From the NCBI GenBank assembly GCA_024401215.1, contig JAKSLL010000034.1, positions 1-34,501 of the forward strand: a stretch of 34,501 nucleotides of DNA. Direction: 5' to 3'. How positions within the stretch are numbered: position 1 is the first letter of the stretch; each line of letters starts with the position of its first letter. This document shows, piece by piece, positions 7,078 through 26,737 of the stretch. A program made the position numbers and the translations under genes. The DNA comes from Bacteroidaceae bacterium (lineage in GTDB: Bacteria > Bacteroidota > Bacteroidia > Bacteroidales > Bacteroidaceae). The notes beneath the pieces were generated by a model, which saw only the letters and a program-made list of their open reading frames with translations, was not told the origin of the DNA and searched no databases.

Positions 7078-7105
7078 CAACGGACATTGAGAGATGCATT
7101 TCCCG

Positions 7106-7113: not shown

Positions 7114-7117
7114 CCGA

Positions 7118-7345: not shown

Positions 7346-7447
7346 TGAGCTGCCCAAATATAATATTTATTTAATTTTATGATTTTTATGATATTATATT
7401 GTGCGGAGAAGGGGCTGCTATGCCCTTATGTTAGTGACTAAAATAAC

Positions 7448-10967: not shown

Positions 10968-10982
10968 TCTAATTATATTATC

Positions 10983-13535
10983 ATGAAGCTCTCTTTCGTT
11001 AAGAAACTTCTATTTATATTGACATTAAGTGTATGCCCTGTTGTGGCACTTGCTCAGTCTATGACAGATGAGCAGGTGGTGAAGTATGTGACTCAGCAGC
11101 AGGAACTTGGAAAGTCACAACAGGATATTGTAACCAGCCTTCTGAAAAAGGGTGTGACAACAGAGCAGCTTCGCCGAATCCGCAAGAAATATCAGGCGGA
11201 ACAGACGGCGCTCGGTGCGCAGAACCTCACAAGCGAGAAGAAAACACCGTCGAGGTTGAGGACAGAGCAGCAGGAGGCTGGTGAAAAAGGACAGATGCGG
11301 AATCAATATATGGTGCAGTCTATGGCTCGCATGAATAACCCTCGCTATGGCACACAGCAGGAGCGCATGCAGGCGATGAATGATGAGATAGGATTCATGG
11401 ACATCGATTCACTTATCTATTACCAGAATTACTTTAAGAACGAAAATGAGGTGTTTGGTAGAAATATCTTCAACAACCAGATGCTTACATTCCAACCAAA
11501 CATGAACATGGCGACTCCTGCGAATTATCGACTTGGAGCGGGCGATGAAGTGATAATCGATGTGTGGGGGGCTTCGCAAGAAACTTTCACAGGACCTATC
11601 TCTCCTGATGGCGTCATAACCATAGAAGGCGTCGGCCCATGCAAGATTGGCGGAATGAGTGTGAGTGAGGCTAATGCGTTCTTGAAGGAGAAGCTCGGAC
11701 AGTTTTATTCGGGTTCGAACATACAGCTTTCTGTGGGTGGAACAAGGACTATACAGGTGCAGGTGATGGGAGAGGTTAATGTGCCAGGCACATACTCGCT
11801 CAGTTCTCTGTCATCGGCCTTCAATGCCCTCTATGCTGCAGGTGGCATAAGCGACATTGGTACATTGAGAGATATCAAGGTGTACCGTCAGGGAAGGCAG
11901 ATATCCTCTATCGATGTGTATGACTACCTTATGAATGGAAATTCTCGCGGTGATGTGCGTCTTTCTGATAATGATGTCATCTTGGTAGGGCCATACGACG
12001 CTCTTGTTGAGATCAGGGGTAAGGTGAAGCGCCCTATGTTTTATGAGATGAAGAAGAATGAAAGCCTCAAGACCATCCTCAGCTATTCGGGAGGTTTCAC
12101 GGGCGATGCATATAAGAAGAGTATTCGTGTGACAAGAAAGAACGGTGCGGAATACTCCATTCATACTGTAGGCGAGTTCGACTGGAGCAGCTTCACGCTT
12201 TGCGATGGTGACTCAGTGACTATCGATAGTGTTGTCGCTCGCTACTCTAATATGGTTGAGGTGCGCGGTGCTGTGTTCCATAGCGGTATGTACCAGATGG
12301 ACGGTAAGATAAATACTGTGCGAGAACTTGTGAAAGCTGCTGAGGGCCTCAGAGAAGATGCCTTCACAGCACGAGCAGTGATGCACAGACAGAAAGCAGA
12401 CTTAACTCTTGAGGTGCTGTCTGTTGATATCTTAGGCATAATGAACGGCACCGTAGCCGACATTCCGCTCAGAAAGAATGACGTGCTCTTCATCCCAAGC
12501 AAGCTCGACTTGCAGGGCGAGAGAACATTCACCATCTCAGGAGAGGTGAAGTTCCCAGGTAGCTATGTCTATGCCGACAACACCACAATTGAGGACCTTG
12601 TGCTTCAGGCAGGTGGACTTACTGATGCGGCATCAACAGTTAAGGTGGACGTGTACAGACGAATAGACAATCCTTTGGCATTGGAAGACGATGAGAATCT
12701 GACAGAGACTTTCACATTTGCCCTGAAGGAGGGATTTGTTGTTGATGGCCAGCAGGGCTTTGTGCTCGAACCTTTTGATATGGTGGCAGTAAGAAAGAGC
12801 CCTTCATATTCGGAACAGCAGAATGTGAAGATTAAAGGTTCTGTGAACTTCGAAGGCACTTATGCAATGACGAACAAGAACTACAAGCTCAGCGACCTCG
12901 TCAAGGCAGCAGGTGGAATCAGTTCGCTTGGATATGCAAAAGGCGCTCGTCTCGACCGTATGATGACAGAAGAGGAGAGACAGCAGCAGGAGGCATCTCT
13001 CAGAGCTTCGCAGATTGCACTTTATGAGGAGTCGATGCAAGCTGATAACAAAAACTTTGACTTGAGCCGAGCAGACTCTCTGCTTAACATGAAACTGGAT
13101 ATTGGCAACACCTTCCCTGTAGCCATTGACCTTGAGGCTGCATTGAAAAATCCTGGGGGCGAAGATGACATCGTGCTCCGTGAGGGTGATTTGCTTATCG
13201 TGCCACAGTATTCATCAACAGTGAAGATTAGCGGTGATGTTATGCACCCTACATCAATGAACTATAGAAAAGGAGAGTCGCTCAACTACTATATCAAGCA
13301 CGCAGGAGGTTACGGTGACAATGCCCGTAAAAGTCGTGTGTACGCTGTCTATATGAACGGCTCGGTTGAGCTGGTCAAGCATTCGAGCAGTAAAGCTGTC
13401 CAGCCAGGATGTACTATCGTCGTGCCTTCTAAGAAGTCAAAGAACAAGATGACAACAGCAGAATATGCTGCTATGGGTACATCGGCGGCATCTATCGCCA
13501 CTATGATGGTGACTATTGCTAACATCCTTAAATAA
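10983..13535 (+). CDS. Multi-SLBB polysaccharide export outer-membrane protein (Wza-like)
   Basis: This 850-residue protein has a signal peptide (MKLSFVKKLLFILTLSVCPV, then VALAQS) and a charged Gln/Lys-rich region to about residue 110. A Poly_export domain follows (about 177-255, NYRLGAGDEVIIDVWG, GPISPDGVITIEGVGPCKIG). Six SLBB-like beta-grasp repeats start near residues 258 (VQVMGEVNVPGTY), 342 (EIRGKVKRPMFYE), 424 (VEVRGAVFHSGMY), 517 (TISGEVKFPGSY), 616 (KIKGSVNFEGTY) and 748 (KISGDVMHPTS). It should form the outer-membrane or periplasmic channel for the finished polymer. It is about twice the length of enterobacterial Wza, normal for Bacteroidota. No lipoprotein cysteine is seen. No partner tyrosine kinase gene lies in the window. 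Confidence 0.92.
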   Translation: MKLSFVKKLLFILTLSVCPVVALAQSMTDEQVVKYVTQQQELGKSQQDIVTSLLKKGVTTEQLRRIRKKYQAEQTALGAQNLTSEKKTPSRLRTEQQEAGEKGQMRNQYMVQSMARMNNPRYGTQQERMQAMNDEIGFMDIDSLIYYQNYFKNENEVFGRNIFNNQMLTFQPNMNMATPANYRLGAGDEVIIDVWGASQETFTGPISPDGVITIEGVGPCKIGGMSVSEANAFLKEKLGQFYSGSNIQLSVGGTRTIQVQVMGEVNVPGTYSLSSLSSAFNALYAAGGISDIGTLRDIKVYRQGRQISSIDVYDYLMNGNSRGDVRLSDNDVILVGPYDALVEIRGKVKRPMFYEMKKNESLKTILSYSGGFTGDAYKKSIRVTRKNGAEYSIHTVGEFDWSSFTLCDGDSVTIDSVVARYSNMVEVRGAVFHSGMYQMDGKINTVRELVKAAEGLREDAFTARAVMHRQKADLTLEVLSVDILGIMNGTVADIPLRKNDVLFIPSKLDLQGERTFTISGEVKFPGSYVYADNTTIEDLVLQAGGLTDAASTVKVDVYRRIDNPLALEDDENLTETFTFALKEGFVVDGQQGFVLEPFDMVAVRKSPSYSEQQNVKIKGSVNFEGTYAMTNKNYKLSDLVKAAGGISSLGYAKGARLDRMMTEEERQQQEASLRASQIALYEESMQADNKNFDLSRADSLLNMKLDIGNTFPVAIDLEAALKNPGGEDDIVLREGDLLIVPQYSSTVKISGDVMHPTSMNYRKGESLNYYIKHAGGYGDNARKSRVYAVYMNGSVELVKHSSSKAVQPGCTIVVPSKKSKNKMTTAEYAAMGTSAASIATMMVTIANILK

Positions 13536-13546
13536 TAGATTGGACA

Positions 13547-14659
13547 ATGGCTGCAAAATATGATTTTCTCATTGTTGGAACAGGACTGTTTGGAGCAGTT
13601 TCTGCTTATCTGCTTAGGAACAAAGGATACAAATGCCTTCTCATAGATAAGCGTTCTCATATAGGAGGAAATGTCTATACAGAGAATGTTGGCGGCATCA
13701 ATGTGCATAAATATGGTGCGCATATCTTCCATACAAGCAATAAGAAAGTGTGGGACTTTGTCAACCAGTTTGCAGAGTTCAACAGATACACAAATTCCCC
13801 TGTAGCCAATTTCAAAGGCAAGCTTTACAACCTCCCGTTCAATATGAACACCTTCTACCAGATGTGGGGCGTGAAGACTCCTGCAGAGGCGAAGGCGAAG
13901 ATTGAAGAACAGAAGGCAGAATACCGTATCGAAGAGCCAAAGAACCTTGAAGAACAGGCAATAAGCCTTATTGGCAAGGACATATATGAAACGCTCATCA
14001 AAGGATATACACAGAAGCAGTGGGGAAGGAAATGCACCGATCTGCCAGCTTTCATCATAAAGAGGCTGCCCGTAAGGTTCACTTTCGACAATAACTACTT
14101 CAACGACAAGTATCAGGGCATTCCAGAGGGAGGGTACACAGCAATGATAGAGAAGATGATAGAAGGGTGCGATGTGAAGCTTGGCGTTGACTATCTTGAT
14201 AATAAAGAGCAGTATGACGCTCTTGCTGGGAAGGTGATTTACACAGGAGAGATTGACAGGTATTTCAACTATCAGTTCGGACATCTGCAATACAGGACTG
14301 TGTCTTTTGATACAGAACGTATAGAGGGCACGGCAAACTATCAAGGCAATGCTGTGGTCAACTATACAGATGCAGAGACACCATTCACACGCATTATAGA
14401 ACATAAGCATTTTGAGATGTTCGGTGATGCTATAGATGCGTGCCCTGACACTGTCATATCGCGTGAATACAGTAAGGAATGGCAGCCGGGAGACGAACCA
14501 TACTATCCTGTAAACGACGACCATAATGCTGCTGTTTATGAACGATATAAAGCCCTCGCTGATGCTCAAGACAAAGTGATTTTTGGAGGTCGCCTGGCTG
14601 AGTATAAGTATTATGACATGCATAAGGTCATTGAGAGGGCTATGGAGGTGATAGGATAG
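13547..14659 (+). CDS. glf: UDP-galactopyranose mutase
   Basis: This FAD enzyme interconverts UDP-galactopyranose and UDP-galactofuranose, so the glycan probably contains galactofuranose. The 370-residue length is standard. The N-terminal dinucleotide-binding motif is FLIVGTGLFGAVSAYLL, followed by LIDKRSHIGGNVYTE and the family marker KYGAHIFHTSNKKVWDFV. Further family regions are KLYNLPFNMNTFYQMW, GYTQKQWGRKCTDLPA, IKRLPVRFTFDNNYFNDKYQ, GIPEGGYT and, near the end, FGGRLAEYKYYDMHKVI. It starts 11 bases after the export gene stop. A 455-codon open frame on the opposite strand is a shadow. Downstream of it the sequence becomes visibly more AT-rich. Confidence 0.97.
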   Translation: MAAKYDFLIVGTGLFGAVSAYLLRNKGYKCLLIDKRSHIGGNVYTENVGGINVHKYGAHIFHTSNKKVWDFVNQFAEFNRYTNSPVANFKGKLYNLPFNMNTFYQMWGVKTPAEAKAKIEEQKAEYRIEEPKNLEEQAISLIGKDIYETLIKGYTQKQWGRKCTDLPAFIIKRLPVRFTFDNNYFNDKYQGIPEGGYTAMIEKMIEGCDVKLGVDYLDNKEQYDALAGKVIYTGEIDRYFNYQFGHLQYRTVSFDTERIEGTANYQGNAVVNYTDAETPFTRIIEHKHFEMFGDAIDACPDTVISREYSKEWQPGDEPYYPVNDDHNAAVYERYKALADAQDKVIFGGRLAEYKYYDMHKVIERAMEVIG

Positions 14660-14725
14660 TATTGTCTCCAAAGTAACTTGACCATTGATAAGATTATTGA
14701 GGTTGTACTCTTTCAATTATATAAT

Positions 14726-15808
14726 ATGAATAAGGAAACAGACAATAAAAAAATTATAGATTTCAACCGTATCGCCAAATTGCTTTGGGAAAAAAGAAAA
14801 GTGTTTTTCAAGGTTTGGCCTATAGTGTTTGTTATTTCCAGCGTATGGATTTTTTCAGAGCCAAGATATTATTCGGCAGAAGTGTCATTGGCGCCAGAAT
14901 CAAATGATGGGTCTGTTTCTGGAGGTGGTTTGTCATCTCTTGCATCTTCCTTTGGTCTCAATATAGGTGGAGTAGGCGGTCACGATGCTATCTATCCATT
15001 GTTGTATCCTGAATTGTTCCAGTCAACGGAGTTTATTGTAAGTTTGCTTGATATTAGAGTGAAAAATGAGGATGGTTCGATAGAAACGGATTATTACACT
15101 TATATGCGCAAATTTCAAAAGTCAAATTGGATAGTTAAACCTTTCCGACTTGCAACGAAATACATAAAGAATCTTTTTTCCGAGAAGAAATCATCTGCGG
15201 CTTCAAACGCATCAAAAGGGGTCAACCCTTTTCACATGTCAGAGGATGATTTTATGCTTTGCCAGTCAATCACAGACAACATAAAATGTGCTCATGATAA
15301 GAAGACCGATGTGATTACTATAACTGTGAAGGATCAGGATCCAGTAATATGCGCATTGTTGGCAGACTCCATTCGCTATCGTCTTCAGAATTTCATTATT
15401 CAGTATCGTACCAGCAAGGCTCGACTTGATGTTGAGTATTATCAGCATTTGGTTGATAGTTCAAGAGTTGAATACCAGAAGAGTGCAGACGCATATTCCA
15501 AGTATTGTGATTCTCATAAGGATATCCTTCTTCAAACTTCAATTCAGAAGCGTGATGAACTTGAAGCAGACATGGAAATCAAAAGCAATACATACACTGC
15601 CATGCAGACTCAGTTGCAGGCGATGAAGGCCAAGGTGCAAGAACGCACACCAGCCTTTACAACCCTTAAGTCTGCCACTGTACCAATTAAACCTGCGGGT
15701 CCAAAACGAATGTTGTTTGTTATTGGCATGTTAGTTCTTTCAACTGTATGTATTGCTGTGTGGTTTATAACAAAAAATCGTAACACTCTGTTCTACGAGA
15801 AAGTATAG
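14726..15808 (+). CDS. Wzz-like polysaccharide chain-length determinant
   Basis: This 360-residue inner-membrane protein has a membrane segment at each end (about residues 29-45, VWPIVFVISSVWIF, and about 330-350, MLFVIGMLVLSTVCIAVWF). Between them is a long periplasmic part with coiled-coil propensity (QKRDELEADMEIK, YTAMQTQLQAMKAKVQERTP). The Pro-Gly-rich stretch before the last segment (VPIKPAGPKRM) is typical of the family, as is the N-terminal YYSAEVSLAPES. A Gly/Ser-rich loop (GSVSGGGLSSLASSFGLNIG) follows. No C-terminal kinase is fused. The ATG at 14726 is preferred over an upstream TTG at 14678. The protein sets polymer length together with the Wzy-type polymerase encoded next, four bases downstream. 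Confidence 0.88.
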   Translation: MNKETDNKKIIDFNRIAKLLWEKRKVFFKVWPIVFVISSVWIFSEPRYYSAEVSLAPESNDGSVSGGGLSSLASSFGLNIGGVGGHDAIYPLLYPELFQSTEFIVSLLDIRVKNEDGSIETDYYTYMRKFQKSNWIVKPFRLATKYIKNLFSEKKSSAASNASKGVNPFHMSEDDFMLCQSITDNIKCAHDKKTDVITITVKDQDPVICALLADSIRYRLQNFIIQYRTSKARLDVEYYQHLVDSSRVEYQKSADAYSKYCDSHKDILLQTSIQKRDELEADMEIKSNTYTAMQTQLQAMKAKVQERTPAFTTLKSATVPIKPAGPKRMLFVIGMLVLSTVCIAVWFITKNRNTLFYEKV

Positions 15809-15812
15809 AAAA

Positions 15813-16865
15813 ATGTTTGTTGTAGCATCATCATTATTAATTGTTGCGTTTATTCTATCATTCCTGGAGGAGTATCTATCTTTCAGGGTTAAGCTGTCCA
15901 TTCTTGCTGGCATGGCAGTAATAATGGTATGTATGTCAACATTTAAGGATTTAAATACTACAGCCGACGCAAGATTCTATTTGGATTATTTTCAAAATAA
16001 TGATGACCCACTTATTGAGGTCATGACTGAGCCTACATACATATATTTGTCAAGGTTGCTGATATATATGGGGTTGGGGATTGAAGTTCTATTGTTTATA
16101 TATGCCATTATCACAATTCCAACAAAATTGGCGGTTATCAATAAGCTTACTCCGTACGTGTTTACGGCATTGTTAATCTACATACCTGCTTATTATCTGC
16201 TTCAGGATGTGGTTCAGATAAGGGCTGGTGCTGCTGCTGCTTTTCTTTTTCTCAGTTTATATATGGTGTGTGAGAAAAAGTATGTATTTGCAGTTTTAGC
16301 ATTTATTACAGCGATATTGTTTCATTATTCTGCTATCGCTTTCCTTCCTGTGTTTATTTGGGGAAATAGAAAACTATACTTACCAGTGAGAATCCTTCTC
16401 GCTATTCTCGTTCCACTTGGTTTTCTTATGTATTTCAAGGAAATGGATTTGCTATCCTTCCTCCCTTCCTCATTAACTCAGGGAAAGGTGGATTTTTACA
16501 AGGATTCTGCAGAGAAAGGTTCTCAGTTCGCAGAATATGTACTGCCATATAAGAACTTCTATCTTATGGTAAGATGTTTATTGTTGTTTGTATGCTTGAT
16601 TTTCTATAAATCCATAATTATGGAAATGAAATATGCAAATATTATAATGGTTATGTTGGCGGCAAGTATTTTTGTTAAACTGTCAATGTCAACCATTCCT
16701 GTCATTGCTGGTCGACTCAGTGATTTGTATGGTATTACTGACTGTATAGCATTCTCATATTGTCTTAGTTTCGTAAAGCCTTCATGGATTGTTAAATGTG
16801 GCATTTTTGGTGTCGGTCTTTACGTGCTTGTCTATAATTACCTGCATTCAGGTTTTATAGTTTAG
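15813..16865 (+). CDS. EpsG/Wzy-like polysaccharide polymerase
   Basis: This 350-residue protein has about ten membrane segments and little else. The pattern fits the EpsG family of Wzy-type polymerases: LNTTADARFYLDYF in the first external loop, EPTYIYLSRLLIYMGLGIE, LLFIYAIITIPTKLAVI, then DVVQIRAGAAAAFLFLSLY and the conserved ILFHYSAIAFLPVFIW. Such enzymes join lipid-linked repeat units on the periplasmic face. Position directly after the chain-length determinant and in the same locus as a Wzx-type flippase supports a Wzx/Wzy-dependent pathway. Polymerases of this kind diverge strongly, so the call rests on topology, a few motifs and context. Confidence 0.82.
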   Translation: MFVVASSLLIVAFILSFLEEYLSFRVKLSILAGMAVIMVCMSTFKDLNTTADARFYLDYFQNNDDPLIEVMTEPTYIYLSRLLIYMGLGIEVLLFIYAIITIPTKLAVINKLTPYVFTALLIYIPAYYLLQDVVQIRAGAAAAFLFLSLYMVCEKKYVFAVLAFITAILFHYSAIAFLPVFIWGNRKLYLPVRILLAILVPLGFLMYFKEMDLLSFLPSSLTQGKVDFYKDSAEKGSQFAEYVLPYKNFYLMVRCLLLFVCLIFYKSIIMEMKYANIIMVMLAASIFVKLSMSTIPVIAGRLSDLYGITDCIAFSYCLSFVKPSWIVKCGIFGVGLYVLVYNYLHSGFIV

Positions 16866-17009: not shown

Positions 17010-18821
17010 ATGCAAGCGATAATGTTAGCAGCCGGTATGGGTAAACGGCTCGGTGAATATACAAAGAACAATACAAAATGCATGTTATCTGTTAATGGGG
17101 TTAAGCTTATTGACAGAGTTATAGACATGTTGTCGGCAAGGAATATAAGTAGGTTGATTATGGTTGTAGGTTATGAAGCCCAAAATGTAATAGACTATAT
17201 CAGCCAACGTGATAATAACGGACTTGAAATTGAATTCATTTCCAATGATATATACGACAAGACGAATAATATCTACTCTTTGTCGTTAGCAAAGGACGAA
17301 CTGTGTAAAGAAGATACTATCCTTCTTGAATCTGATTTGATATTTGAAGAAAGGATTCTTGATTTGCTGTTAAATCATCCTGATAAGGATCTGGCTTTAG
17401 TGGCAAAGTATGAGACTTGGATGGACGGTACAATGGTAACTATTGATAGCGATAGGAATATTGTGAATTTCATACCTAAAGAAGCCTTTCGTTATGAAGA
17501 TGTAGATGTTTACTATAAGACAGTGAACATATATAAATTCAGCAAGGAATTTTCAGCAAATATCTATGTACCTTTCCTTCTCGCTTATAGTAAGGTTATG
17601 GGGTATAATGAATACTATGAACAAGTCCTCCGTATCTTGCTTCATCTGCACAATTCTCCATTGAAAGCATTGCCTATTGGTAATGAAAAATGGTATGAAA
17701 TTGATGATGTGCAGGATTTGGATATTGCCTCATGTATCTTTTCTGAAGATGTCGTGAAATATAATGAATACCATCGCAGATATGGCGGATACTGGAGATT
17801 CCCTCAAATGTTGGATTATTGCTATTTGGTAAATCCATTCTTTCCTCCTAAACGTATGCGTGATGAACTAAAGGCGAACTTTGATATACTTCTTGAGAAT
17901 TATCCTTCAGGCATGTATGTCAATTCTTTGCTTGCAGGCAAGTATTTTGGCATTAAGCAGGATTATGTTGTTGTAGGCAATGGCGCTGCAGAGCTGATAA
18001 AAGTTGTTATGGAAGATCATGCGGAAGATAAGGTGGGCATTGTATATCCAACATTTGATGAATACCCTAATCGCTTAAAGAAAGAACAAATAGTCCCTTT
18101 TGTTGTTGACACGCCAGATTTCAGATATGGTGCTGACGACCTTATTAATTATTTCAAAGATAAAGAAATAAAGCTTCTCTTGCTAATCAATCCGGATAAT
18201 CCTTCAGGTAATTTTATTCCGAAGAATGATGTCCTTCGTCTTGCCGGATGGTGTATGAATGCAGGTGTGCGCCTGATTGTAGATGAGAGTTTTGTTGACT
18301 TTACAGAAGGGTTTGAGGGGAACAGTCTTCTTCATAATGACATTCTTGAAGAATATCCTGTTATGATGGTGATGAAATCCATTAGCAAAAGCTATGGTGT
18401 GCCAGGACTTCGACTTGGAATCTTCGCCACATCCAACAAGGAGATGATATGTAAAATTAAGAAGGAGGTTAGTATATGGAATATTAATAGCTTTGGAGAA
18501 TTCTATATGCAGATTTTCGGGAAATATGAGAAAGACTATCATCGTGCGTGTCAATTGTTTATTGAAGAACGCGAAACATTTAGAAAAGAACTTGAAAGCA
18601 TTCCTTATCTGCATGTTGTTCCATCGCAGGCAAACTATTTTCTTTGCGAGGTTATAGCCAAATATACGTCATCAGAGCTTACACAAGAATTGATAAACCA
18701 CGATGTGATAATAAGCAATTGTGGACTTAAAAGTAATATGGCAGGAAAACAGCTTATTAGACTTGCTGTAAGAAGTCGTGCTGATAATAAAAAACTTATA
18801 TCTATATTAAAGTCATTGTAA
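17010..18821 (+). CDS. Bifunctional LicC/PntC-like nucleotidyltransferase fused to CobD-like PLP decarboxylase/aminotransferase
   Basis: The start is the ATG at 17010 (603 residues), directly before the nucleotide-binding motif; upstream in-frame starts add an implausible N-terminus. Residues 1-235 are a nucleotidyltransferase: IMLAAGMGKRLGEYTKNNTK, the LicC/PntC-type DKTNNIYSLSLAK, and the metal site LLESDLIFEE. Residues 255-603 are a fold-type I PLP enzyme: YCYLVNPFFPPKRM, VVGNGAAELIKVV, LINPDNPSGN, LIVDESFVDF, the Schiff-base lysine K460 in SISKSYGVPGLRLG, and a CobD-like end (PSQANYFL, RLAVRSRADNKKL). CobD decarboxylates threonine phosphate to aminopropanol phosphate; a related reaction on serine phosphate gives ethanolamine phosphate. 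The simplest reading is that one domain makes an amino-alcohol phosphate and the other activates it with CTP. The stop overlaps the next start (TAATG). Confidence 0.85.
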   Translation: MQAIMLAAGMGKRLGEYTKNNTKCMLSVNGVKLIDRVIDMLSARNISRLIMVVGYEAQNVIDYISQRDNNGLEIEFISNDIYDKTNNIYSLSLAKDELCKEDTILLESDLIFEERILDLLLNHPDKDLALVAKYETWMDGTMVTIDSDRNIVNFIPKEAFRYEDVDVYYKTVNIYKFSKEFSANIYVPFLLAYSKVMGYNEYYEQVLRILLHLHNSPLKALPIGNEKWYEIDDVQDLDIASCIFSEDVVKYNEYHRRYGGYWRFPQMLDYCYLVNPFFPPKRMRDELKANFDILLENYPSGMYVNSLLAGKYFGIKQDYVVVGNGAAELIKVVMEDHAEDKVGIVYPTFDEYPNRLKKEQIVPFVVDTPDFRYGADDLINYFKDKEIKLLLLINPDNPSGNFIPKNDVLRLAGWCMNAGVRLIVDESFVDFTEGFEGNSLLHNDILEEYPVMMVMKSISKSYGVPGLRLGIFATSNKEMICKIKKEVSIWNINSFGEFYMQIFGKYEKDYHRACQLFIEERETFRKELESIPYLHVVPSQANYFLCEVIAKYTSSELTQELINHDVIISNCGLKSNMAGKQLIRLAVRSRADNKKLISILKSL

Positions 18822-19840
18822 TGAAGACAATAACAATTTGCGGTGGAGGTTCTCTTGGTCACGTTATAGCAGGGTGGCTTTCTGCGCAAGGACATGCTAT
18901 AGTAAACATCTTGACAGGGAAGCCAGAGAAGTGGCAGCATGAAATAATGGTTGACACGCCTGATGGTAAGGTTCTATGCGGTGATATTGCAAAGATAACT
19001 AACACGCCAGAAGAAGTCATTCCTGAGTCGGATGTTGTACTGTTATGTCTTCCTGGATTCTTGATTGCAAGGCAGTTGGAGTCCATTAAACCTGTTTTGA
19101 AACCAACAACCTTTGTGGGATGTGTTTTCGCTTCAACTGGTTTTTTCTTTGAGGCATTTAACATTCTTGGACATAAACAGCCTCTCTGGGGCTTTCAGCG
19201 TGTTCCTTTTATTTCGCGTGTTGATGAGTATGGTAAGTCGGCTCATCTTCTTGGATATAAGAAGTCACATAATATAGCAGTGGAGAATGTTGGCGATGAT
19301 GCTAAGAATGCCTTTGTAAAGGTTATGGAAGATTGGTTTGAACGGCCTATTTCCCTTCTGCGTAATTATTATGAGGCATCTCTCACAAATAGCAATCCAT
19401 TGCTTCACACCTCTCGCCTTTTTACAATGTTTGGAGATGAGAATGGAGAAAAGGTATATGATCGTATGATTCTTTTCTATGAAGAGTGGACCGAAGCTGC
19501 AGCCGATATGTATATAAAGATGGATCAGGAATTCTTCAGTCTCTTAAAGGTTCTTCCTGTTTCTGATGGATACCTACCAACAGCTTTGGAGTATTATGAT
19601 AGTCATGATGCAAAATCACTTGCTGAAAAATTACGTTCTATTGATGGTTTCAAGGGAATAACTTCGCCAATGTTAAAGGTTGGTGAATGTTGGGTTCCTG
19701 ATTTTGAAAGTAGATATTTTACTGAAGATTTCCCTTATGGCTTAAGATATATTTGGCAGTTGGCTCATGAGAATGGCATAGCTTGTCCAACTATTGATAA
19801 AGTATATGAATGGGGAATGACAAAAGTACAGAAAAAGTAA
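18821..19840 (+). CDS. NAD/NADP octopine/nopaline dehydrogenase family protein
   Basis: This 339-residue enzyme has an N-terminal Rossmann motif (TICGGGSLGHVIAGWLSAQG, Gly8, Gly10, Gly13). A central strand-loop (DVVLLCLPGFLIARQLES) leads to a C-terminal helical domain with the opine dehydrogenase signature N190-S-N-P-L-L-H196, where the His is the expected catalytic residue. Opine dehydrogenases reductively condense an amine with a 2-oxo acid to give an N-carboxyalkyl secondary amine. The gene overlaps the PLP/nucleotidyltransferase fusion by one base and is followed by licD, so it probably modifies the amino group of the moiety made there. The substrate is not known. A plain 2-oxo or hydroxy acid dehydrogenase role is less likely given the NSNP-H motif. 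Confidence 0.85.
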   Translation: MKTITICGGGSLGHVIAGWLSAQGHAIVNILTGKPEKWQHEIMVDTPDGKVLCGDIAKITNTPEEVIPESDVVLLCLPGFLIARQLESIKPVLKPTTFVGCVFASTGFFFEAFNILGHKQPLWGFQRVPFISRVDEYGKSAHLLGYKKSHNIAVENVGDDAKNAFVKVMEDWFERPISLLRNYYEASLTNSNPLLHTSRLFTMFGDENGEKVYDRMILFYEEWTEAAADMYIKMDQEFFSLLKVLPVSDGYLPTALEYYDSHDAKSLAEKLRSIDGFKGITSPMLKVGECWVPDFESRYFTEDFPYGLRYIWQLAHENGIACPTIDKVYEWGMTKVQKK

Positions 19841-19852
19841 CAAGTCGAAATT

Positions 19853-20662
19853 ATGGTTTACAATACTGGTGAAACGTCAGAAGAACTGAGAGCGAAATAT
19901 AATCCGGAAGGTTCAAAACTTCGTAAATCTCAGCTAAGAATGGTTGACATGCTTTTGTATCTCGATAGGATATTCCGTGAAAACAATATAGATTATATGC
20001 TGTGTGCAGGTAATATCCTTGGAGCCGTACGCCATGAAGGAGAGTTTATCCCTTGGGATGACGATTTGGATATAAAGGTGCTGCGAAAGGATTTTAAGCG
20101 TGCTCAACAAGTGATATTGGATAATCCTCATCCGCAATATGTTCTGCAAAACCATGATACAGATCCTGGATATATGGGTCAATGGGCTGTTCTGAGAGAT
20201 ACTAAAAGTGAATATATAAAGAAATCTGTGATACACAATATAAGGAAATATAGAGGCATTCAAATAGATATATTTCCATGGGATAATGGAATTCCGTTTT
20301 GGGTAAGATATTGCGCATCGCAGATGCAGGCAAGATTGTTGGAACCATTCATAAAGATAAAATTATTTAAAATTGCTAATGCGTTGTATTTTCTTATGTA
20401 TAAAGTACTGTTCCCAATTATTATTCATATATGCAATAAGCGTAATAGCAATAAATATTATCCAACATTGGGCACAGGGTGGTTTATTGAATACGAAGAT
20501 AGCACATTGTTCCCAACAAAACCTATAATGTTTGAGGGACATCAGTTTCCTGGCCCTGCTAAACTTGATAAATATCTGAAGGAAACTTATGGTGACTATA
20601 TGAGTCTTCCACCTTTGGATAAGCGGAATCAACATGAGGCAGAATACAATATCTGGGATTAG
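19853..20662 (+). CDS. LicD-family phosphotransferase
   Basis: LicD proteins transfer phosphocholine or similar groups from CDP-linked donors to surface glycans. This 269-residue protein has the family core: LRKSQLRMVDMLLYLDRIF, then NNIDYMLCAGNILGAVRHEG, and the acidic metal site IPWDDDLDIKVLRKDF (Asp69-71 and Asp73). A second conserved part is RKYRGIQIDIFPWDNGIPF, and the end has YGDYMSLPPLDKRN. The gene starts 12 bases after the dehydrogenase. With the nucleotidyltransferase fusion it forms an activation-transfer pair. No choline kinase or choline transporter gene is present, so phosphocholine itself is less likely than a group made by the neighbouring enzymes. Confidence 0.9.
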   Translation: MVYNTGETSEELRAKYNPEGSKLRKSQLRMVDMLLYLDRIFRENNIDYMLCAGNILGAVRHEGEFIPWDDDLDIKVLRKDFKRAQQVILDNPHPQYVLQNHDTDPGYMGQWAVLRDTKSEYIKKSVIHNIRKYRGIQIDIFPWDNGIPFWVRYCASQMQARLLEPFIKIKLFKIANALYFLMYKVLFPIIIHICNKRNSNKYYPTLGTGWFIEYEDSTLFPTKPIMFEGHQFPGPAKLDKYLKETYGDYMSLPPLDKRNQHEAEYNIWD

Positions 20663-20679: not shown

Positions 20680-22107
20680 ATGTCAACAAGTCTAAAAAAA
20701 AATTTTCTATATAATATTATATTAACAGTTGGGAATTATATTTTCCCATTGCTTGTGTATCCCTATACTTCAAGAGTGTTGGGCGTGGTTAATATTGGAA
20801 TATGTAATTATGTAGATAGTATAATAAACTATTTCGTCCTTTTTTCTGCTTTAGGTGTGGGCTCTCTTGGTGTAAGGGAGGTAGCTCGCGCTAAGGAAGA
20901 AGGGGAAAGACTTGACAAAGTGTTCTCTACGTTGGTCTTTTTTAATGTCTTGTTGACGATATTTGCTGTTATATTGCTGGTTGCGTTAACTTACTTTGTT
21001 CCATTATTTGAAAGTTACAAAGACTATCTCTTGATAGGAATACTTAAGCTTGTGATGAGCGCATTCCTTGTGGAATGGTTTTATCAGGGGATATCAAACT
21101 TTAAGTTTGTTACAATACGTTCCCTCATTGTTAGAACATTGTATGTATTTGGAGTGTTTCTTTTTGTAAGGACTAAAGACGATGCGTTAATATATTATTT
21201 CCTTACTTGTTTGATGGTGGCGGTAAATGCTATATATAACTGGTTGTATTCAAGAAAACTTGTAAAGATGTCTTTCAGGAGTATTAACTTGAAACTCTAC
21301 CTTGTTCCGATTTTAAGCTATGGATTGTATAGAATCTTAACTTCTATGTACACCACGTTTAATGTAACTTTTCTTGGAACCGTAACCAGTGATATTGAAG
21401 TAGGTTATTTCACAACCGCAACAAAGCTCTACACCATAATAATGAGTCTTTTTACGGCATTTACAACTGTTATGGTGCCTCGTGTGAGTGAATTGGTTGC
21501 GAAGGGAGACAGAGAAAGTCTTGTTTCTATTGCAAATAAGACATTTAACGCTGTCTTTTCCATATCTATTCCTCTTATATATATATGTTATTGCTACGCT
21601 TCCTTAATTATAAATATTATTGCTGGTGAAGGATACGAAGGTGCTGTTATTCCTTTTCAGATTGTGATGATATTATTGCTTGTGATAGCATTGGAGCAAA
21701 TAATAATACAGCAATTTCTTATGGCAATAACGAACTCAAAGTGTATTATTGTTCTCAGCAGTTTGGGTGCCGTGATAGGATTGTTGTGTAACTTCGTACT
21801 TGATGTACCTTTGAAAAGTACTGGCGCAGCTATTTCGTGGGCTATTTCTGAGGTTGCAATTTTATTTGCATCTTTGTTTTATTTTAAGAAGTATTATTCA
21901 ATACAATTTCCTTTTGGACGAATGGTTAAATACTGTGTTGTCTATGCTCCAATACTTGTCGTGTTTTTCCTCTTCCCTGAACAAGAAATCACATGGAAGT
22001 TAGTTTTTTCTTTAGTGCTGATTCTTTTATGGTTTATATTTGTTAATATAAAGATTATCCCCAATGAATTTATACAATCATTAGCAAACAGATTTCTGAA
22101 GAAATAA
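20680..22107 (+). CDS. wzx: Oligosaccharide repeat-unit flippase (Wzx-type, MOP superfamily)
   Basis: This 475-residue inner-membrane protein has 12 or more hydrophobic segments across its length. The N-terminus (LKKNFLYNIILTVGNYIFPL, then YPYTSRVLGVVNIGICNYV) and the block ALGVGSLGVREVARAKEE are typical of bacterial polysaccharide transporters. LVEWFYQGISNFKFVTIRSL and VPRVSELVAKGD also match the family. It should flip lipid-linked repeat units to the periplasm for the EpsG-like polymerase. It starts 17 bases after licD. Such flippases vary with repeat-unit structure, so the exact substrate cannot be inferred. Confidence 0.93.
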   Translation: MSTSLKKNFLYNIILTVGNYIFPLLVYPYTSRVLGVVNIGICNYVDSIINYFVLFSALGVGSLGVREVARAKEEGERLDKVFSTLVFFNVLLTIFAVILLVALTYFVPLFESYKDYLLIGILKLVMSAFLVEWFYQGISNFKFVTIRSLIVRTLYVFGVFLFVRTKDDALIYYFLTCLMVAVNAIYNWLYSRKLVKMSFRSINLKLYLVPILSYGLYRILTSMYTTFNVTFLGTVTSDIEVGYFTTATKLYTIIMSLFTAFTTVMVPRVSELVAKGDRESLVSIANKTFNAVFSISIPLIYICYCYASLIINIIAGEGYEGAVIPFQIVMILLLVIALEQIIIQQFLMAITNSKCIIVLSSLGAVIGLLCNFVLDVPLKSTGAAISWAISEVAILFASLFYFKKYYSIQFPFGRMVKYCVVYAPILVVFFLFPEQEITWKLVFSLVLILLWFIFVNIKIIPNEFIQSLANRFLKK

Positions 22108-22158
22108 CTAATTTATTTGTTTTGTATATATTCAAACTATTTAAGGGTATTTAATATA

Positions 22159-23169
22159 ATGGACGCAACTAAAAATATAGAAAATAGGAATGTCGGTATA
22201 ACGATTGCGAAAGCAATTGCTATCATTTTGATGGTGTTAGGTCATTCTGGATGCCCAGATGCACTGAATGATTTTCTTGGAATAATCCGCATGCCTCTTT
22301 TCTTCATTATGAGTGGTTATTGCTTTAAGCAAAAATATATAGAGGACGGGCGGAAGTATTTGAAAAGAAGAGTTACCGGTGTCTATTGGCCATTTGTTAA
22401 ATGGTCAATCGTTTTCCTTCTGCTTCATAATGTGATTTATCCTGATAATTATTCACTCCAAACGATTGGATATAAGGCGTTTTGTACTGTGGTCGGACTG
22501 ATAGAAAATGAGCAGTTGATAGGTGGATATTGGTTTGTTCATGACTTGTTCTGGGGCTCTCTGCTCTTTTATGCAATGGTAAGGGTTGTGAAAAAAGAAT
22601 GGGCAGTTGTCTTGTTGTTAGGAATCGCAGGACTTCTTATGAACTATTTTGATGTGAAACTCTCTTGTTTCCTTTACCCCCGTACAGTCTTGGCTTCGTG
22701 CTTTATTGCAATTGGGTATGCATATAAGGTAAGCCGATTCTCCTTTGAAAAGAATTGGATATTCATAGGTTGTGTTTTTGTTTCACTTGGCGTTTTGAGT
22801 CTATTTTGGACAACATCATTCCTTGAGTTTTCTTGGAAGGATGTTCCACTTTTCATACCAGCCGCAACTATGGGCTCGTTAATGATTTTTGGAATTGGCG
22901 AGCACTTGAGCCTTATAAGTGATGGAGTTTGCAAGCGCTTTCTTGTCTATGTGGGTGGAAAAACATTTGCGATTCTTACATGGCATATGTTGTCTTTCAA
23001 ATTAGTTTCAGTCTTTCTGATATTGGTTTTGGAATTGGATTGGACCCGCTTTTATGATTTCCCTGTTATGATGGATTATGCTAGCAAAGGTTGGAGTATA
23101 GCATATCTTGCTGTGGGATTGTTTGTTCCGCTGTCTGTTTATTATTTAATAGAGAAGATAAAGAAATGA
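22159..23169 (+). CDS. Acyltransferase 3 family membrane protein
   Basis: The ATG at 22159 gives 336 residues; an earlier TTG at 22117 is less likely. The protein has about ten membrane segments. Family motifs are present: NVGITIAKAIAIILMVLGHS with the catalytic-type His, then RMPLFFIMSGYCFKQKY and the basic KYLKRRVTGVYWPFVKW. Later come QLIGGYWFVHDLFWGSLLFY and ILTWHMLSFK. PF01757 enzymes add acetyl or other acyl groups to sugars, so it probably O-acylates the glycan. The stop overlaps the following glycosyltransferase start by four bases (ATGA), showing one transcription unit. Confidence 0.9.
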   Translation: MDATKNIENRNVGITIAKAIAIILMVLGHSGCPDALNDFLGIIRMPLFFIMSGYCFKQKYIEDGRKYLKRRVTGVYWPFVKWSIVFLLLHNVIYPDNYSLQTIGYKAFCTVVGLIENEQLIGGYWFVHDLFWGSLLFYAMVRVVKKEWAVVLLLGIAGLLMNYFDVKLSCFLYPRTVLASCFIAIGYAYKVSRFSFEKNWIFIGCVFVSLGVLSLFWTTSFLEFSWKDVPLFIPAATMGSLMIFGIGEHLSLISDGVCKRFLVYVGGKTFAILTWHMLSFKLVSVFLILVLELDWTRFYDFPVMMDYASKGWSIAYLAVGLFVPLSVYYLIEKIKK

Positions 23170-24116
23170 AATTTTCCGTAACGATACCTTCTTACAAATC
23201 ACGTTATCTCAAAGAAGCTATAGAGAGCATTGTAACGCAGACATACGAAAATTGGGAGCTTGTCATTGTAGATGATTGCTCGCCAGAAAACTTGTATGAC
23301 ATCGTTGCTCCATTCCTCTCCGATAGCCGCATACGTTACTATCGCAATAAAAAGAATTGTGGTGCTGTAGATGTTGTTGACAACTGGAACATCTGTCTTG
23401 AGTATTGTACAGGTGAGTATGTGATATGCATAGGCGATGATGATAGACTTAAACAATGCTGTCTCGAAGAATATCGAAAACTGATAGAAAAATATCCAGG
23501 ACTTGAAATATATCATGCTCGCACGGAAATCATTGATGAGAACAGCGCACCAAAGTTCTTGCAAGAAGAACGTCCTGAATGGGAGTCTGCATTGTCTTTG
23601 CTATGGAATAGATGGGATAATCGAGAAAACCAGTATATTGGGGATTTCTGCTATGATACACAAGCGTTGAGGCGTAATGGAGGATACTACAAGCTTCCTC
23701 TTGCATGGGGAAGCGATGACATTTCGGCTGTTAGGGCTGCTACTTCAAAAGGAATTGCTAACACTCTTATTCCATGCTTTGAATATCGTCAGAATAGTCA
23801 AACTATCACAAGCAGTAAGAATGCTCGTACAAAGCTTGAGGCCACATTGGCTTCTCACAAGTGGTTCATGGGATTCATTAAAGGACTGGATGTGGATTGT
23901 TTGTCAGACAGGGATAAAGAACGTTTTATGACTATCAACACCGTGTGCAAGACATATTATTATAAGTCCTTGGGAAAGAACTGTGCTGATGATTTGAGGG
24001 GTAACCCGTTCAGAATACCATTCTGGTATCGTTCCTTAGCTGTATTTGGATTTTCGCCTTTGCTTTTTTTAAAGTGGTATATTAAATCAGTCTGTAATGT
24101 GATAACAGGAAAATAA
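23166..24116 (+). CDS. Glycosyltransferase family 2
   Basis: The start at 23166 gives 316 residues beginning MKFSVTIPSYKSRYLKEAIE. It overlaps the acyltransferase stop by four bases. The GT-A fold is visible: SIVTQTYENWELVIVDDCSP near residue 38 binds the nucleotide, and YVICIGDDDRLK near 90 is the metal-binding DxD equivalent. LPLAWGSDDISAVRAATSKG follows as a probable acceptor or catalytic-base region. The protein is cytoplasmic or membrane-associated and should add one sugar to the lipid-linked repeat unit. Donor and linkage cannot be determined. A second in-frame ATG upstream at 23091 lies inside the preceding gene and is rejected. Confidence 0.92.
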   Translation: MKFSVTIPSYKSRYLKEAIESIVTQTYENWELVIVDDCSPENLYDIVAPFLSDSRIRYYRNKKNCGAVDVVDNWNICLEYCTGEYVICIGDDDRLKQCCLEEYRKLIEKYPGLEIYHARTEIIDENSAPKFLQEERPEWESALSLLWNRWDNRENQYIGDFCYDTQALRRNGGYYKLPLAWGSDDISAVRAATSKGIANTLIPCFEYRQNSQTITSSKNARTKLEATLASHKWFMGFIKGLDVDCLSDRDKERFMTINTVCKTYYYKSLGKNCADDLRGNPFRIPFWYRSLAVFGFSPLLFLKWYIKSVCNVITGK

Positions 24117-24124
24117 TAATGTAG

Positions 24125-25267
24125 ATGAAAAAAGTTCTTTTCTTGACCAGACACTACCTGAGTGACAATAATGGTGGCGCAAATGCTACCAAAGGTTTTG
24201 TTCATGCCTTTGCAAGATTGTTTGACGACTTGGTACTGATATATCCGGAGCATGACAACGAAGACAATTCCAATTTCGTTCCACAAAGCGTGAAGTGCAT
24301 ACCGTGCTTTGACCATCGCTCCAAGATACAAAAAGGTCTAGATGTTTATCGAGGAAGATTGCATAGACTTACGGATTTTGTCAGACGCCATCTTGGTGGT
24401 TGTAAATATGATATTATTGTCATTGACCATAGCTTAACAGCTGCTTCTCTCATTGAGAACATAAAGGCAACGGGTGCAAAGATTATTACTATACACCATA
24501 ATGTGGAAAGGTTTTATATGAAGGACAATCTTCCACCATTAGCATACCGTTTGCCGATGATGTACTATTCATCAAAGGCCGAAACAGCAGCGTTGTTAGC
24601 AAGTGATATAAATTTCACCTTGACAGAGAATGACGCACAAGTGTTTGTGTCATGGTATCCACAGCGCAATCTTCACCTTCACAATATAGGAATCTGTGAA
24701 TTCAGGCATTTGGCAGACAAATCTTTTCCGCTGAAGAAAAAAGGGCGCACGTTCATCATAACAGGTTCGCTATGCTTCAAGCAGTCTAATAGACCCATTG
24801 TTGAGTTTATGAAGAATTACTATGAAATTCTTCTTAAGGCGTGTCCTGACTGCAAACTTATTATTGCAGGTCGGAATCCAAGTATGGAGATTCTTGATAT
24901 TTGCCGAGATAAACAGAATGTCATGGTCATTGGAAATCCCGAAGATATGAATGTGTTGCTTGAAGGTGCAGATTATTATTTGTGTCCGATAAATGCAGGA
25001 AGTGGCATAAAACTTCGTGTGATAGATGGATTGAAGCATGGTCTCCCGATTTTGTGCCATTCCGTATCAGCTGTAGGCTATGAAACTTTCAGAAATAATC
25101 GTCAACTGTTTGAATACAATGATCAGAATAGTTTCTATACATCGGTAAATCAAATGCTCATGGCTGATATCAATCCTAATGATATATATAATACTTTCAA
25201 AGAAGAATTCAGTGTGGAATCTCTTGCGATGAAGCTGCATCGTATAATTCAGAATGTCCTATTATGA
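24125..25267 (+). CDS. Glycosyltransferase family 4 (GT-B fold)
   Basis: This 380-residue protein has a two-domain GT-B pattern. The N-terminal half starts MKKVLFLTRHYLSDNNGGAN and contains YDIIVIDHSLTAASLI and ITIHHNVERFYMKDN, resembling the acceptor-binding domain of family 4. The C-terminal half contains FIITGSLCFKQSNRPIVEFM, CKLIIAGRNPSM, MVIGNPEDMNVLLEGADYYL and CPINAGSGIKLRVIDGLKHG, the last being the donor-binding region. It lies eight bases after the family 2 gene and adds a sugar to the repeat unit on the cytoplasmic face. The specificity is unknown. It ends at an AT-rich gap of almost 300 bases. Confidence 0.88.
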   Translation: MKKVLFLTRHYLSDNNGGANATKGFVHAFARLFDDLVLIYPEHDNEDNSNFVPQSVKCIPCFDHRSKIQKGLDVYRGRLHRLTDFVRRHLGGCKYDIIVIDHSLTAASLIENIKATGAKIITIHHNVERFYMKDNLPPLAYRLPMMYYSSKAETAALLASDINFTLTENDAQVFVSWYPQRNLHLHNIGICEFRHLADKSFPLKKKGRTFIITGSLCFKQSNRPIVEFMKNYYEILLKACPDCKLIIAGRNPSMEILDICRDKQNVMVIGNPEDMNVLLEGADYYLCPINAGSGIKLRVIDGLKHGLPILCHSVSAVGYETFRNNRQLFEYNDQNSFYTSVNQMLMADINPNDIYNTFKEEFSVESLAMKLHRIIQNVLL

Positions 25268-25564
25268 TAAATTGGATATAAGGTATATATATTGATTGAG
25301 AGTCATCATGAAATGTAATTTTGTGTGATATAGTTATAATAATTCTCAATGTTTTAACATGTAAGGTTGTTTGTTATTCATTTGTTTTTATATATGAGTA
25401 AATTTTGTTAATTTTGTGTGATAATTATGATACGATAGTGATAATAATTCCTTTCGGCAAACAGCAAATATGTTTGTTACTGCTTGAAGTGATTGTGTCT
25501 GCTATTTGTTAATAATCTGTTTTAATCAAGGCTTGTTTCCACCTTTAATTCAATATTTTACTTT
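25268..25564 (+). promoter_or_regulatory. AT-rich gap with two copies of a promoter-like module
   Basis: TAATTTTGTGTGATA occurs exactly at 25316-25330 and 25409-25423, each containing TAnnTTTG. ATAATAATTC follows each copy within 40 bases. The second half of the capsule operon may be transcribed from here as well. CAAACA (25459) and TGTTTG form a small hairpin further on. No coding sequence is seen. Confidence 0.4.
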
Positions 25565-26737
25565 ATGTCGTTGAAAAAGATAGCATACATAGGTAAGATA
25601 CAATTATCTGATGTTGATTTGTCGTATCTTCATGAGGCTCAGCAATTGGAAGATATTACGTATATCATGGAGATAACGCCTCGTTTTATGAATGGTCCCG
25701 CCTTTAATGTAAAACAAATGTATCCAAAGACAGGCATATTTAAGGCGATTGATGCTTATCCACAATTCAAACAGTATGCTCAATTTATTGATTTGGATAA
25801 ATTCTATATCGTAAATACTTGTGGTAGCATGTGGTGTATAAAGGCTTTTTATACCAACCTACTTCTGCTTATTTTTCTTATTAAGAACAAGTTTGATGTT
25901 ATACACTTAACATGGCCTCTCAATGTATATGAGTTTATTGTGTATTTCTTGAAGAATAGGATGCTTCTTACTGTACACGATCCTTTTCCTCATACGGGGT
26001 TGGATACTTTCATAGTACGACTTCGCAGAAAGGTAGCATTTTGGCTAATACCTAAGTTTATTATACTCAATAGAAATCAGCGTCAGCAGTTTCTTGATTA
26101 CTACTCGCTAAATGAGGCGTGTGTGCTCAACAGCATGTTGAGCTGTTATACATATTTGCGAACAGTTTCGCCCAAATCATCTTCTATTCCTCTTGAAGGT
26201 AAGAAATACATATTGTTTTTTGGAAAGATTTCTCAGTATAAAGGTCTTGATTATCTGTTACCTGCAATGTGTAAAGTACATAGTCATTGTCCTGATCTTC
26301 ATCTTGTTGTAGCAGGTGGTGGCACTTTTCATTTTGATATAGAGAAATATAAAAATCTTGATTACATCCATATAGAAAACCGTTTTATAGAACAAGAAGA
26401 ACTTGTAGCCCTCATAAAGAATTCCTATTTTGTTGTCTGCCCTTATACTGATGCTACGCAGAGTGGGGTGGTGATGTCAGCTTTTGCGTTCAACAAACCG
26501 TCTGTTGTAACAAATGTAGGTGGACTTGGCGAGATGGTAATTGATGGCAAGTTTGGTCGAGTCATAAAGGAAAAGGATGTTGAAGCTCTTGTCGAAGTCA
26601 TAATACAGTTGGCTGATGATGAGGCACTGATAAATAGATATTCAAACAATATTGCTGAAGCATACAAATCAGGAGAACTCTCATGGAGGAAGATTGCTGA
26701 AATGCTAAGCCAAGAATATAAAAAAGTTGCGGAATGA
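25565..26737 (+). CDS. Glycosyltransferase family 4 (GT-B fold)
   Basis: This 390-residue protein has the family 4 C-terminal signature: KKYILFFGKISQYKGLDYLL, LHLVVAGGG, NRFIEQEELVALIKNSYFVV and CPYTDATQSGVVMSAFAFNK, then PSVVTNVGGLGEMVIDGKFG. The N-terminal half is more divergent, with LIFLIKNKFDVIHLTWPLNV and MLLTVHDPFPHTGLDTF. It is distinct in sequence from the family 4 gene at 24125. It overlaps the following gene by four bases. The role is addition of one sugar to the repeat unit. Donor and linkage are unknown. Confidence 0.92.
   Translation: MSLKKIAYIGKIQLSDVDLSYLHEAQQLEDITYIMEITPRFMNGPAFNVKQMYPKTGIFKAIDAYPQFKQYAQFIDLDKFYIVNTCGSMWCIKAFYTNLLLLIFLIKNKFDVIHLTWPLNVYEFIVYFLKNRMLLTVHDPFPHTGLDTFIVRLRRKVAFWLIPKFIILNRNQRQQFLDYYSLNEACVLNSMLSCYTYLRTVSPKSSSIPLEGKKYILFFGKISQYKGLDYLLPAMCKVHSHCPDLHLVVAGGGTFHFDIEKYKNLDYIHIENRFIEQEELVALIKNSYFVVCPYTDATQSGVVMSAFAFNKPSVVTNVGGLGEMVIDGKFGRVIKEKDVEALVEVIIQLADDEALINRYSNNIAEAYKSGELSWRKIAEMLSQEYKKVAE

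Follow-up and report, generated by a model that had tools for sequence, protein, structure and literature searches.

A recurrent three-gene cassette in Bacteroidales polysaccharide loci predicted to make and attach an N-carboxyalkylated ethanolamine phosphate

Why does an opine dehydrogenase gene lie between a nucleotidyltransferase gene and a LicD gene in a polysaccharide locus? The question arises from a 34,501-nucleotide stretch of DNA from a Bacteroidaceae bacterium (the window; contig JAKSLL010000034.1). The window is contig C163 of a 4.35-Mb assembly (G000) that is 93.55% complete with 7% contamination. It contains a cassette of three genes on the forward strand. The first (17010..18821) encodes a 603-amino-acid fusion of a cytidylyltransferase and a pyridoxal phosphate (PLP) enzyme, matched by Pfam NTP_transf_3 and Aminotran_1_2. 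The second (18821..19840) encodes a 339-amino-acid octopine-type (opine) dehydrogenase (ODH; Octopine_DH, 105 bits, cut-off 30). The third (19853..20662) encodes a 269-amino-acid LicD-family phosphotransferase with a PWDDDLD motif (LicD, 104.7 bits, cut-off 22.6). The last base of the fusion's TAA stop codon is the first base of the ODH ATG, and 12 bases separate ODH from LicD. A first-pass annotation made from the sequence alone had given this layout of three open reading frames (ORFs) and these families, and both were borne out. The cassette probably makes an N-carboxyalkylated ethanolamine phosphate. The phosphate ester would originate from L-serine phosphate, the ODH would join its amine to a 2-oxo acid, and LicD would transfer the product to a glycan.

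Recurrence and gene fusions of the cassette

The three genes are a recurrent cassette, beyond chance. Among 101 genomes (G000 and 100 relatives), 14 encode the full-length fusion. An ODH relative (E ≤ 0.001) was found in 12 of these 14 and in 5 of the other 87 (Fisher p = 4e-10, indicative only because the genomes are related). Thirteen genomes encode a strong ODH match (E < 1e-100), and 12 of them also encode the fusion. The two genes directly adjoin in 11 genomes and have one gene between them in G016. Two other fusion genomes, G050 and G094, encode an OCD/mu-crystallin protein between the fusion and LicD. LicD lies about 15 kb from the cassette in G016, and in G078 it is present in the genome, not near the cassette.

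Two of these genomes carry further features. The gene between the fusion and ODH in G016 (locus L059, 10191-10562) belongs to the PD-(D/E)XK nuclease family. G044 (L063, 12092-13882) contains an ODH-LicD ORF with no fusion gene before it. This could reflect either a loss or a donor supplied from elsewhere.

A wider scan, with one genome per species and two patterns, returned at least 587 matching stretches, in which one locus may count twice. The best 80 loci, ranked by likeness to the window, were kept. They come mostly from metagenome-assembled genomes. Nearly all are Bacteroidales by title, and one is labelled Verrucomicrobia. Named isolates that carry the cassette include Bacteroides cellulosilyticus DSM 14838 (OCD type) and Xylanibacter rarus 109 (ODH type). 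An intact fusion is present in 78 of the 80; the fusion is split into two ORFs in L112, and tiling gave no fusion ORF in L141. Several of the 80 also belong to the 101-genome set (checked for four: L066 is G030, L098 is G003, L125 is G017, and L128 is G012). The search for the same gene order elsewhere, suggested in the first-pass annotation, therefore returned a recurrent cassette, mainly in Bacteroidales among these best 80 loci. Among 295 genomes sampled evenly from the class, G000 alone had the fusion (E ≤ 1e-100) and two had a member of the ODH family (E ≤ 1e-30), so the cassette is rare at class breadth.

The gene that follows the fusion in the 78 loci is ODH (49), ODH in the same ORF (5), OCD (12), OCD on the opposite strand (3), LicD (2), or another gene (7). 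ODH is next to or fused with the fusion in 54 loci, and OCD is next to it in 15. Same-strand junctions between the fusion and ODH or OCD span 30 bases or fewer in 60 of 61 cases, and 32 overlap (script-chosen starts). LicD is within four genes in 57 of 78.

Every pair of neighbouring functions was found fused somewhere. The nucleotidyltransferase (NTP) and PLP halves are fused in all loci. The PLP half and ODH share one ORF in 5 of the 78. A joint ODH-LicD ORF occurs in 7 of the 78 and in 7 of the 13 strong-ODH loci; three are common to both sets, which leaves 11 distinct loci. These ORF fusions, with the exchangeable slot described below, are the strongest evidence that the dehydrogenase acts on the same molecule as its neighbours. 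Stand-alone opine metabolism was rejected because ODH is fused to the PLP half or to LicD in single ORFs.

Some ORFs have additional parts. L103 (5412-6941, 509 amino acids) and L108 (5286-6941, 551 amino acids) contain a LicD-tagged ORF directly 5' of the NTP-PLP fusion, and the one in L103 is an IspD-LicD fusion by Pfam. The ODH-LicD ORFs of L119 (8838-11606, 922 amino acids) and L145 (5113-7911, 932 amino acids) extend about 300 residues beyond the usual 600.

Predicted enzymes and pathway

The cytidylyltransferase domain comprises residues 1 to about 245 of the fusion (17010..17744). NTP_transf_3 matched it with 39.4 bits (cut-off 27), and its closest PDB matches were LicC and the PntC fusion. 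In the LAAGxGxRL loop, L6, A7, A8, G9, G11, R13, and L14 are unvarying in 34 of 34 fusions. E107 aligns with Glu104 of Treponema denticola PntC (Tde-PntC; phmmer alignment to 6pd1) and is unvarying in 14/14 and 34/34 fusion sequences. Glu104 touches the primary amine of 2-aminoethylphosphonate in PntC, and LicC has Asp105 there (PMC6697681). By its loop and its amine-binding acid, this half appears to be of the LicC/PntC type and is predicted to form a cytidine diphosphate (CDP)-amino alcohol.

The PLP domain comprises residues from about 255 to 603 (17775..18818). K460 in the SISKSYG motif is the putative PLP lysine. The best named family was TIGR01140 (CobD) with 172.5 bits, under the cut-off of 290.55; the CobD-like proteins L146 and L148 also fall under it, with 245.7 and 264.8 bits. 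TIGR01141 (HisC) gave 137.8 bits, under its cut-off of 276.55. The top fold match was CobD, tied with SMUL_1544 and 3ftb. In a PLP-domain tree, 16 fusions (the first 16 of 34 in the alignment) form a clade with SMUL_1544 (6oux) and one other protein (support 100/98, with a long-branch warning). The fusions (100/100) and 16 CobD-like proteins of the relatives (100/99) form separate clades, and six HisC proteins form their own, apart from the fusions. The NCBIfam check covered L146 and L148 for the CobD-like rows and L165, L166, L022, and L031 for the HisC rows; the remaining labels come from similarity or a separate search. Of the 30 loci read, the tree omits L157, L158, L159, and L163, which have long N-terminal extensions, as well as L167, and L168, which is the L016 gene. 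Neither this tree nor the slot tree below is corrected for relatedness.

Two identities were rejected for this domain. It is not a cobamide-synthesis CobD in disguise; G000 has a separate CobD-like gene, and the fusions are in a separate clade. It is not HisC, which is also a separate clade. The first-pass annotation had proposed comparing the domain with CobD and HisC and had named a grouping with sugar aminotransferases as evidence against its own reading. The domain did not group that way; its best matches are of the CobD, SMUL_1544, and HisC type, with a tree that has no DegT-type rows. We take SMUL_1544 to be the norcobamide (ethanolamine-linker) enzyme, an L-serine phosphate decarboxylase. 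Because the PLP half groups with it, ethanolamine phosphate is the predicted product, and serine phosphate is favoured over threonine phosphate as the substrate.

The ODH has the fold of an opine dehydrogenase and not that of a ketopantoate reductase. H196, D303, and R298 align with H212, D329, and R324 of Pecten octopine dehydrogenase (OcDH) and are unvarying in 44 of 44 ODH sequences. Glu142 of OcDH is replaced by Gln, with an unvarying Arg adjoining it. The enzyme thus keeps the His-Asp dyad and the NADH-sensing Arg, and it is predicted to join an amine reductively to a 2-oxo acid. The DDD motif of LicD is kept as well: xWDDDxD occurs in 56 of 56 LicD-tagged ORFs that score over 100 bits in L066-L145, and LicD is predicted to pass a phospho-alcohol from CDP to a glycan.

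The pathway would have four steps. The PLP half would decarboxylate L-serine O-phosphate, which arises during serine biosynthesis, and thereby yield ethanolamine phosphate, as its grouping with SMUL_1544 suggests. The N-terminal half would then use cytidine triphosphate to form CDP-ethanolamine, as expected from its likeness to LicC and PntC and its PntC-type glutamate. The fold and catalytic residues of the ODH suggest that it would condense a 2-oxo acid (probably pyruvate) onto the free amine and reduce the imine with NAD(P)H. Its product would carry an N-(1-carboxyethyl) group, expected to be (R) as with other opine dehydrogenases. LicD would finally move the phospho-alcohol onto a sugar of the repeat unit. 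The NTP-PLP and ODH-LicD fusions point to alkylation after activation, at the stage of CDP-ethanolamine or of the glycan, although NTP-PLP-ODH fusions occur as well and leave room for other orders. LicD does not sort by ODH or OCD in 17 loci, where sorting would be a sign that it reads a tailored donor.

The precursor could differ from the one proposed. The PLP half might decarboxylate L-threonine phosphate to 1-aminopropan-2-ol phosphate, or transaminate dihydroxyacetone phosphate to serinol phosphate, with the ODH N-alkylating either one. CobD uses threonine phosphate, and the CobD-type fold and family matches of the PLP half fit such a substrate. Cj1437 of Campylobacter jejuni makes serinol phosphate for a capsule (PMC12409886). 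This is unlikely, since the PLP domain groups with SMUL_1544, apart from the CobD-like proteins that these relatives also encode; threonine phosphate would also presumably need a kinase, and the cassette contains no kinase gene. Far less probable is phosphonate tailoring, in which a PntC-like fusion would use 2-aminoethylphosphonate instead of a phosphate ester. Tde-PntC, a cytidylyltransferase with a PLP aminotransferase, is the nearest fused architecture in PDB, and Bradyrhizobium has NTP and PLP homologues beside aepX. The PLP halves differ, however, being class V in PntC and CobD-like in the cassette. Phosphoenolpyruvate (PEP) mutase is over the cut-off in 8 of the 14 cassette genomes, is strong (E < 1e-50) in six, and is on the cassette contig in G016 and G022. 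Against this, 8 of the 14 have no strong match, and a separate NTP-transferase gene lies near PEP mutase in G003, G009, G012, and G022. For G000, the phosphonate route was rejected, as PEP mutase was not found at E ≤ 0.001 in its 93.55% complete assembly. The phosphocholine Lic-1 route was rejected too; the best choline kinase (LicA) match in G000 had 19.7 bits against a cut-off of 29. The first-pass annotation had also reported no choline uptake gene. No such Pfam name occurs among the scanned genes of the window, and no search was aimed at a choline permease.

Exchange of the dehydrogenase at the slot

ODH and OCD replace each other at the same site in syntenic loci. Within four genes of the fusion, 53 of the 78 loci have ODH only, 14 have OCD only, 2 have both, and 9 have neither. 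A quick tree of 82 fusion proteins, with SH-aLRT support only, requires the OCD label to be gained or lost 10 times, and starred branches force 10 of these changes. The changes set OCD against every other label and are not confined to ODH-to-OCD swaps.

A blastn comparison covered ten selected locus pairs. In five ODH/OCD pairs (L126/L130, L126/L132, L143/L135, L079/L081, and L084/L100), the sequences agree as far as the final bases of the fusion gene, show no match across the middle gene, and agree once more after it. Between L126 and L130, identity is 86% over a span that starts at a methionyl-tRNA synthetase-like gene, so named for its likeness to one in L053, and stops 37 bases short of the fusion's end; it is 73% where the match resumes at the end of LicD. 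L118/L111, in which the first match stops about 290 bases early, and L136/L129, which has an extra gene, are less clean. The comparison of L086 and L080 stops at a contig end. L126 and L143, both with ODH, are alike throughout. The match of L068 (OCD) with L071 (neither gene) is limited to the fusion.

The presence of OCD at the ODH site in relatives leads us to read the site as an amine-tailoring slot. Tauropine dehydrogenases occur in both the ODH and OCD families and N-carboxyethylate taurine, an aminoethyl-sulfonate, to form an opine. In two sets of 9 and 8 loci, how alike the LicD proteins are bears no relation to the slot type, so one kind of transferase seems able to take either product. 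The pathway logic of the first-pass annotation held at the gene level, given the ORF fusions, the imine-reducing OCD at the ODH site, and the PLP clade with SMUL_1544.

The part played by the slot can be read in other ways. The ODH or OCD gene might act elsewhere, on a free opine or another ketone, and leave plain ethanolamine phosphate as the tag. Pecten OcDH shows no activity when the amine lacks an alpha-carboxylate, and the nine loci with neither gene, some of them cut by contig ends, would agree with a plain tag. This reading is quite improbable given the ORF fusions of ODH with the PLP half and with LicD. Unfused ODH also lies 30 bases or fewer from the fusion nearly always, OCD replaces it in syntenic loci, and its fold is that of an opine dehydrogenase. 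Somewhat easier to credit, if still doubtful, is that OCD is not equivalent to ODH and uses another keto acid or chemistry on the same precursor. The OCD family is diverse and includes alanine dehydrogenase, ketimine reductases, SbnB, and cyclodeaminases, and two loci of the 78 have both genes. Against this reading, the family also includes tauropine dehydrogenases (PMC4113996), and the independence of LicD from the slot type is as expected for alike products.

A broader form of the preferred reading, in which the cassette N-carboxyalkylates ethanolamine phosphate, is offered only tentatively. It holds that the cassette is allelically exchanged. A conserved CDP-ethanolamine synthase would be paired with ODH or OCD, two opine-forming dehydrogenases unrelated to each other, and a given glycan would then bear the (R) or the (S) form of N-carboxyalkyl ethanolamine phosphate; distant homologues would tailor the amine by other enzymes, a methyltransferase in Gloeothece and a formyltransferase in Fusobacterium. 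If so, Bacteroidales would alter their surface stereochemistry by the swap of one gene. The tag on the glycan may vary between strains.

Host locus, wider homologues, and known systems

The cassette lies in a Wzx/Wzy-type surface polysaccharide locus. An EpsG-family, Wzy-like polymerase (15813..16865) precedes it, and a Wzx-like flippase (Polysacc_synt by Pfam; 20680..22107) follows it. Upstream (10356..15808) are genes for an initiating sugar transferase, an SLBB export protein, UDP-galactopyranose mutase, and a GNVR-like protein. The last is a possible chain-length regulator (GNVR weak, 20 bits, under the cut-off of 27.7). Downstream (22117..27522) are an acyltransferase and four glycosyltransferases by Pfam. 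All are on the forward strand. The first-pass annotation had placed the product on a capsule; the surface polysaccharide locus stands, and capsule, exopolysaccharide, and O-antigen are indistinguishable here.

More distant homologues have other neighbours. In a plasmid collection, 12 of 494 matching records cover at least 80% of the query. A Gloeothece verrucosa plasmid (L176, 5977-9439) encodes the fusion, then an S-adenosylmethionine (SAM) methyltransferase, then LicD. With this set, ethanolamine phosphate might become methylated in a cell that imports no choline. In Fusobacterium vincentii (L175, 7225-10869), a fusion homologue (47%) lies between a formyltransferase-like gene and a DUF1015 gene, both abutting, and LicD is three genes upstream. 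DUF1015 may be a serine kinase. The Fusobacterium formyltransferase and DUF1015 and the Gloeothece methyltransferase had no match in the tiled ORFs of L050-L145 (phmmer, E 1e-3). In Erwinia pERA53 (L178), a CDP-alcohol phosphatidyltransferase adjoins the fusion homologue, and the cluster contains HAD phosphatases. Priestia pBM700 (L177) has a fusion homologue with ATP-grasp genes and an extra 1-deoxy-D-xylulose 5-phosphate (DXP) reductoisomerase. B. oleiciplenus encodes a TarF-like glycerophosphotransferase directly after the fusion. The separate NTP and PLP genes of Bradyrhizobium are on either side of a CDP-alcohol phosphatidyltransferase, and this context beside aepX suggests that relatives of the fusion can serve phosphonates. 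Priestia and Pseudonocardia have no CDP-alcohol or amine-tailoring neighbour among their annotated genes. The wider contexts fit a CDP-alcohol product with a variously tailored amine.

Several related gene sets were also observed. The fusion homologues of L177 and L178 are distant (32-33%), and their clusters look like small-molecule ones. G000 contains a second, unfused set on contig C173 (L172, 5248-9852) with two LicD genes, an NTP transferase, a WaaP/Kdo-kinase-like gene (seen by Pfam), and a PLP protein that is weakly CobD/HisC-like. L173 and L174 are loci of this kind, and LicD, NTP, and PLP genes also occur together in G016 and G044. In L182 (G337, contig C14, 6674-8446, reverse strand), an ODH is joined to an acid-phosphatase (HAD) domain, and a CTP_transf_like gene lies next to it. 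G337 has no cassette fusion at E ≤ 1e-100, and the gene perhaps belongs to another opine-nucleotide pathway. A viral-classed contig (L181, IMGVR_UViG_3300025009_000162, 6001-7815) encodes a family B DNA polymerase and the fusion (49% identity). Downstream of this fusion are two dehydrogenase-like genes and one for LicD.

The proposed product has a natural counterpart. N-[(R)-1-carboxyethyl]ethanolamine phosphate is a substituent of the Proteus mirabilis O-polysaccharide (PMC9630907). The first-pass annotation's statement that the compound occurs in some O-antigens agrees with this source, and the occurrence makes the proposed product plausible only. We found no biosynthetic gene set for the Proteus substituent in the openly licensed literature. 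The same literature, with matches viewed in part, gave no description of the cassette, its ORF fusions, or the ODH/OCD exchange. If the proposal is true, the cassette would mark, at the gene level, those Bacteroidales (many of them from rumen and gut) whose glycans bear a charged tag that resembles an amino acid. It would be a candidate biosynthesis for the Proteus substituent and would tie opine chemistry to polysaccharide decoration. The exchanged loci would be a natural test bed in which one gene differs among kept neighbours, with a bearing on variation in commensal surface antigens. The enzymes could also serve to make tailored CDP-amino alcohols.

Among the closest known systems is Tde1415 of T. 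denticola (PntC-AEPT; PDB 6pd1 and 6pd2). It likewise has an N-terminal cytidylyltransferase, and the PLP enzyme joined to it supplies its amine substrate. Its Glu104 corresponds to E107, and LicD-like transferases occur in PntC neighbourhoods (PMC6697681). It differs in using a phosphonate and a class V aminotransferase half, and neither 'opine' nor 'dehydrogenase' is used in the main text of that source (PMC6697681). In Lic-1 (LicA-LicB-LicC-LicD), a LicC-like enzyme also makes a CDP-amino alcohol that LicD transfers to a glycan (PMC10434233). Lic-1 imports and phosphorylates choline, whereas the cassette would use an amino acid phosphate precursor and alkylate the amine.

SMUL_1544 and CobD, the (nor)cobamide amino acid O-phosphate decarboxylases, share the PLP fold, and SMUL_1544 shares the clade. 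Cj1436 of C. jejuni carries out the same reaction as proposed here, also for a capsule (PMC12409886), and is likened by reaction, not by sequence. These three enzymes are stand-alone, have no fused cytidylyltransferase, and feed cobamides or glucuronamide. Pecten OcDH and Arthrobacter CENDH share the fold, the His-Asp dyad, and the equivalent of Arg324 with the cassette ODH. The opine dehydrogenases and the OCD-type tauropine dehydrogenase differ in that their substrates are free amino acids or taurine, and OcDH differs further at Glu142. The families are known. Their combination, the fusions, and the ODH/OCD exchange would be a new form within the known LicC/PntC-LicD type of CDP-amino-alcohol tailoring.

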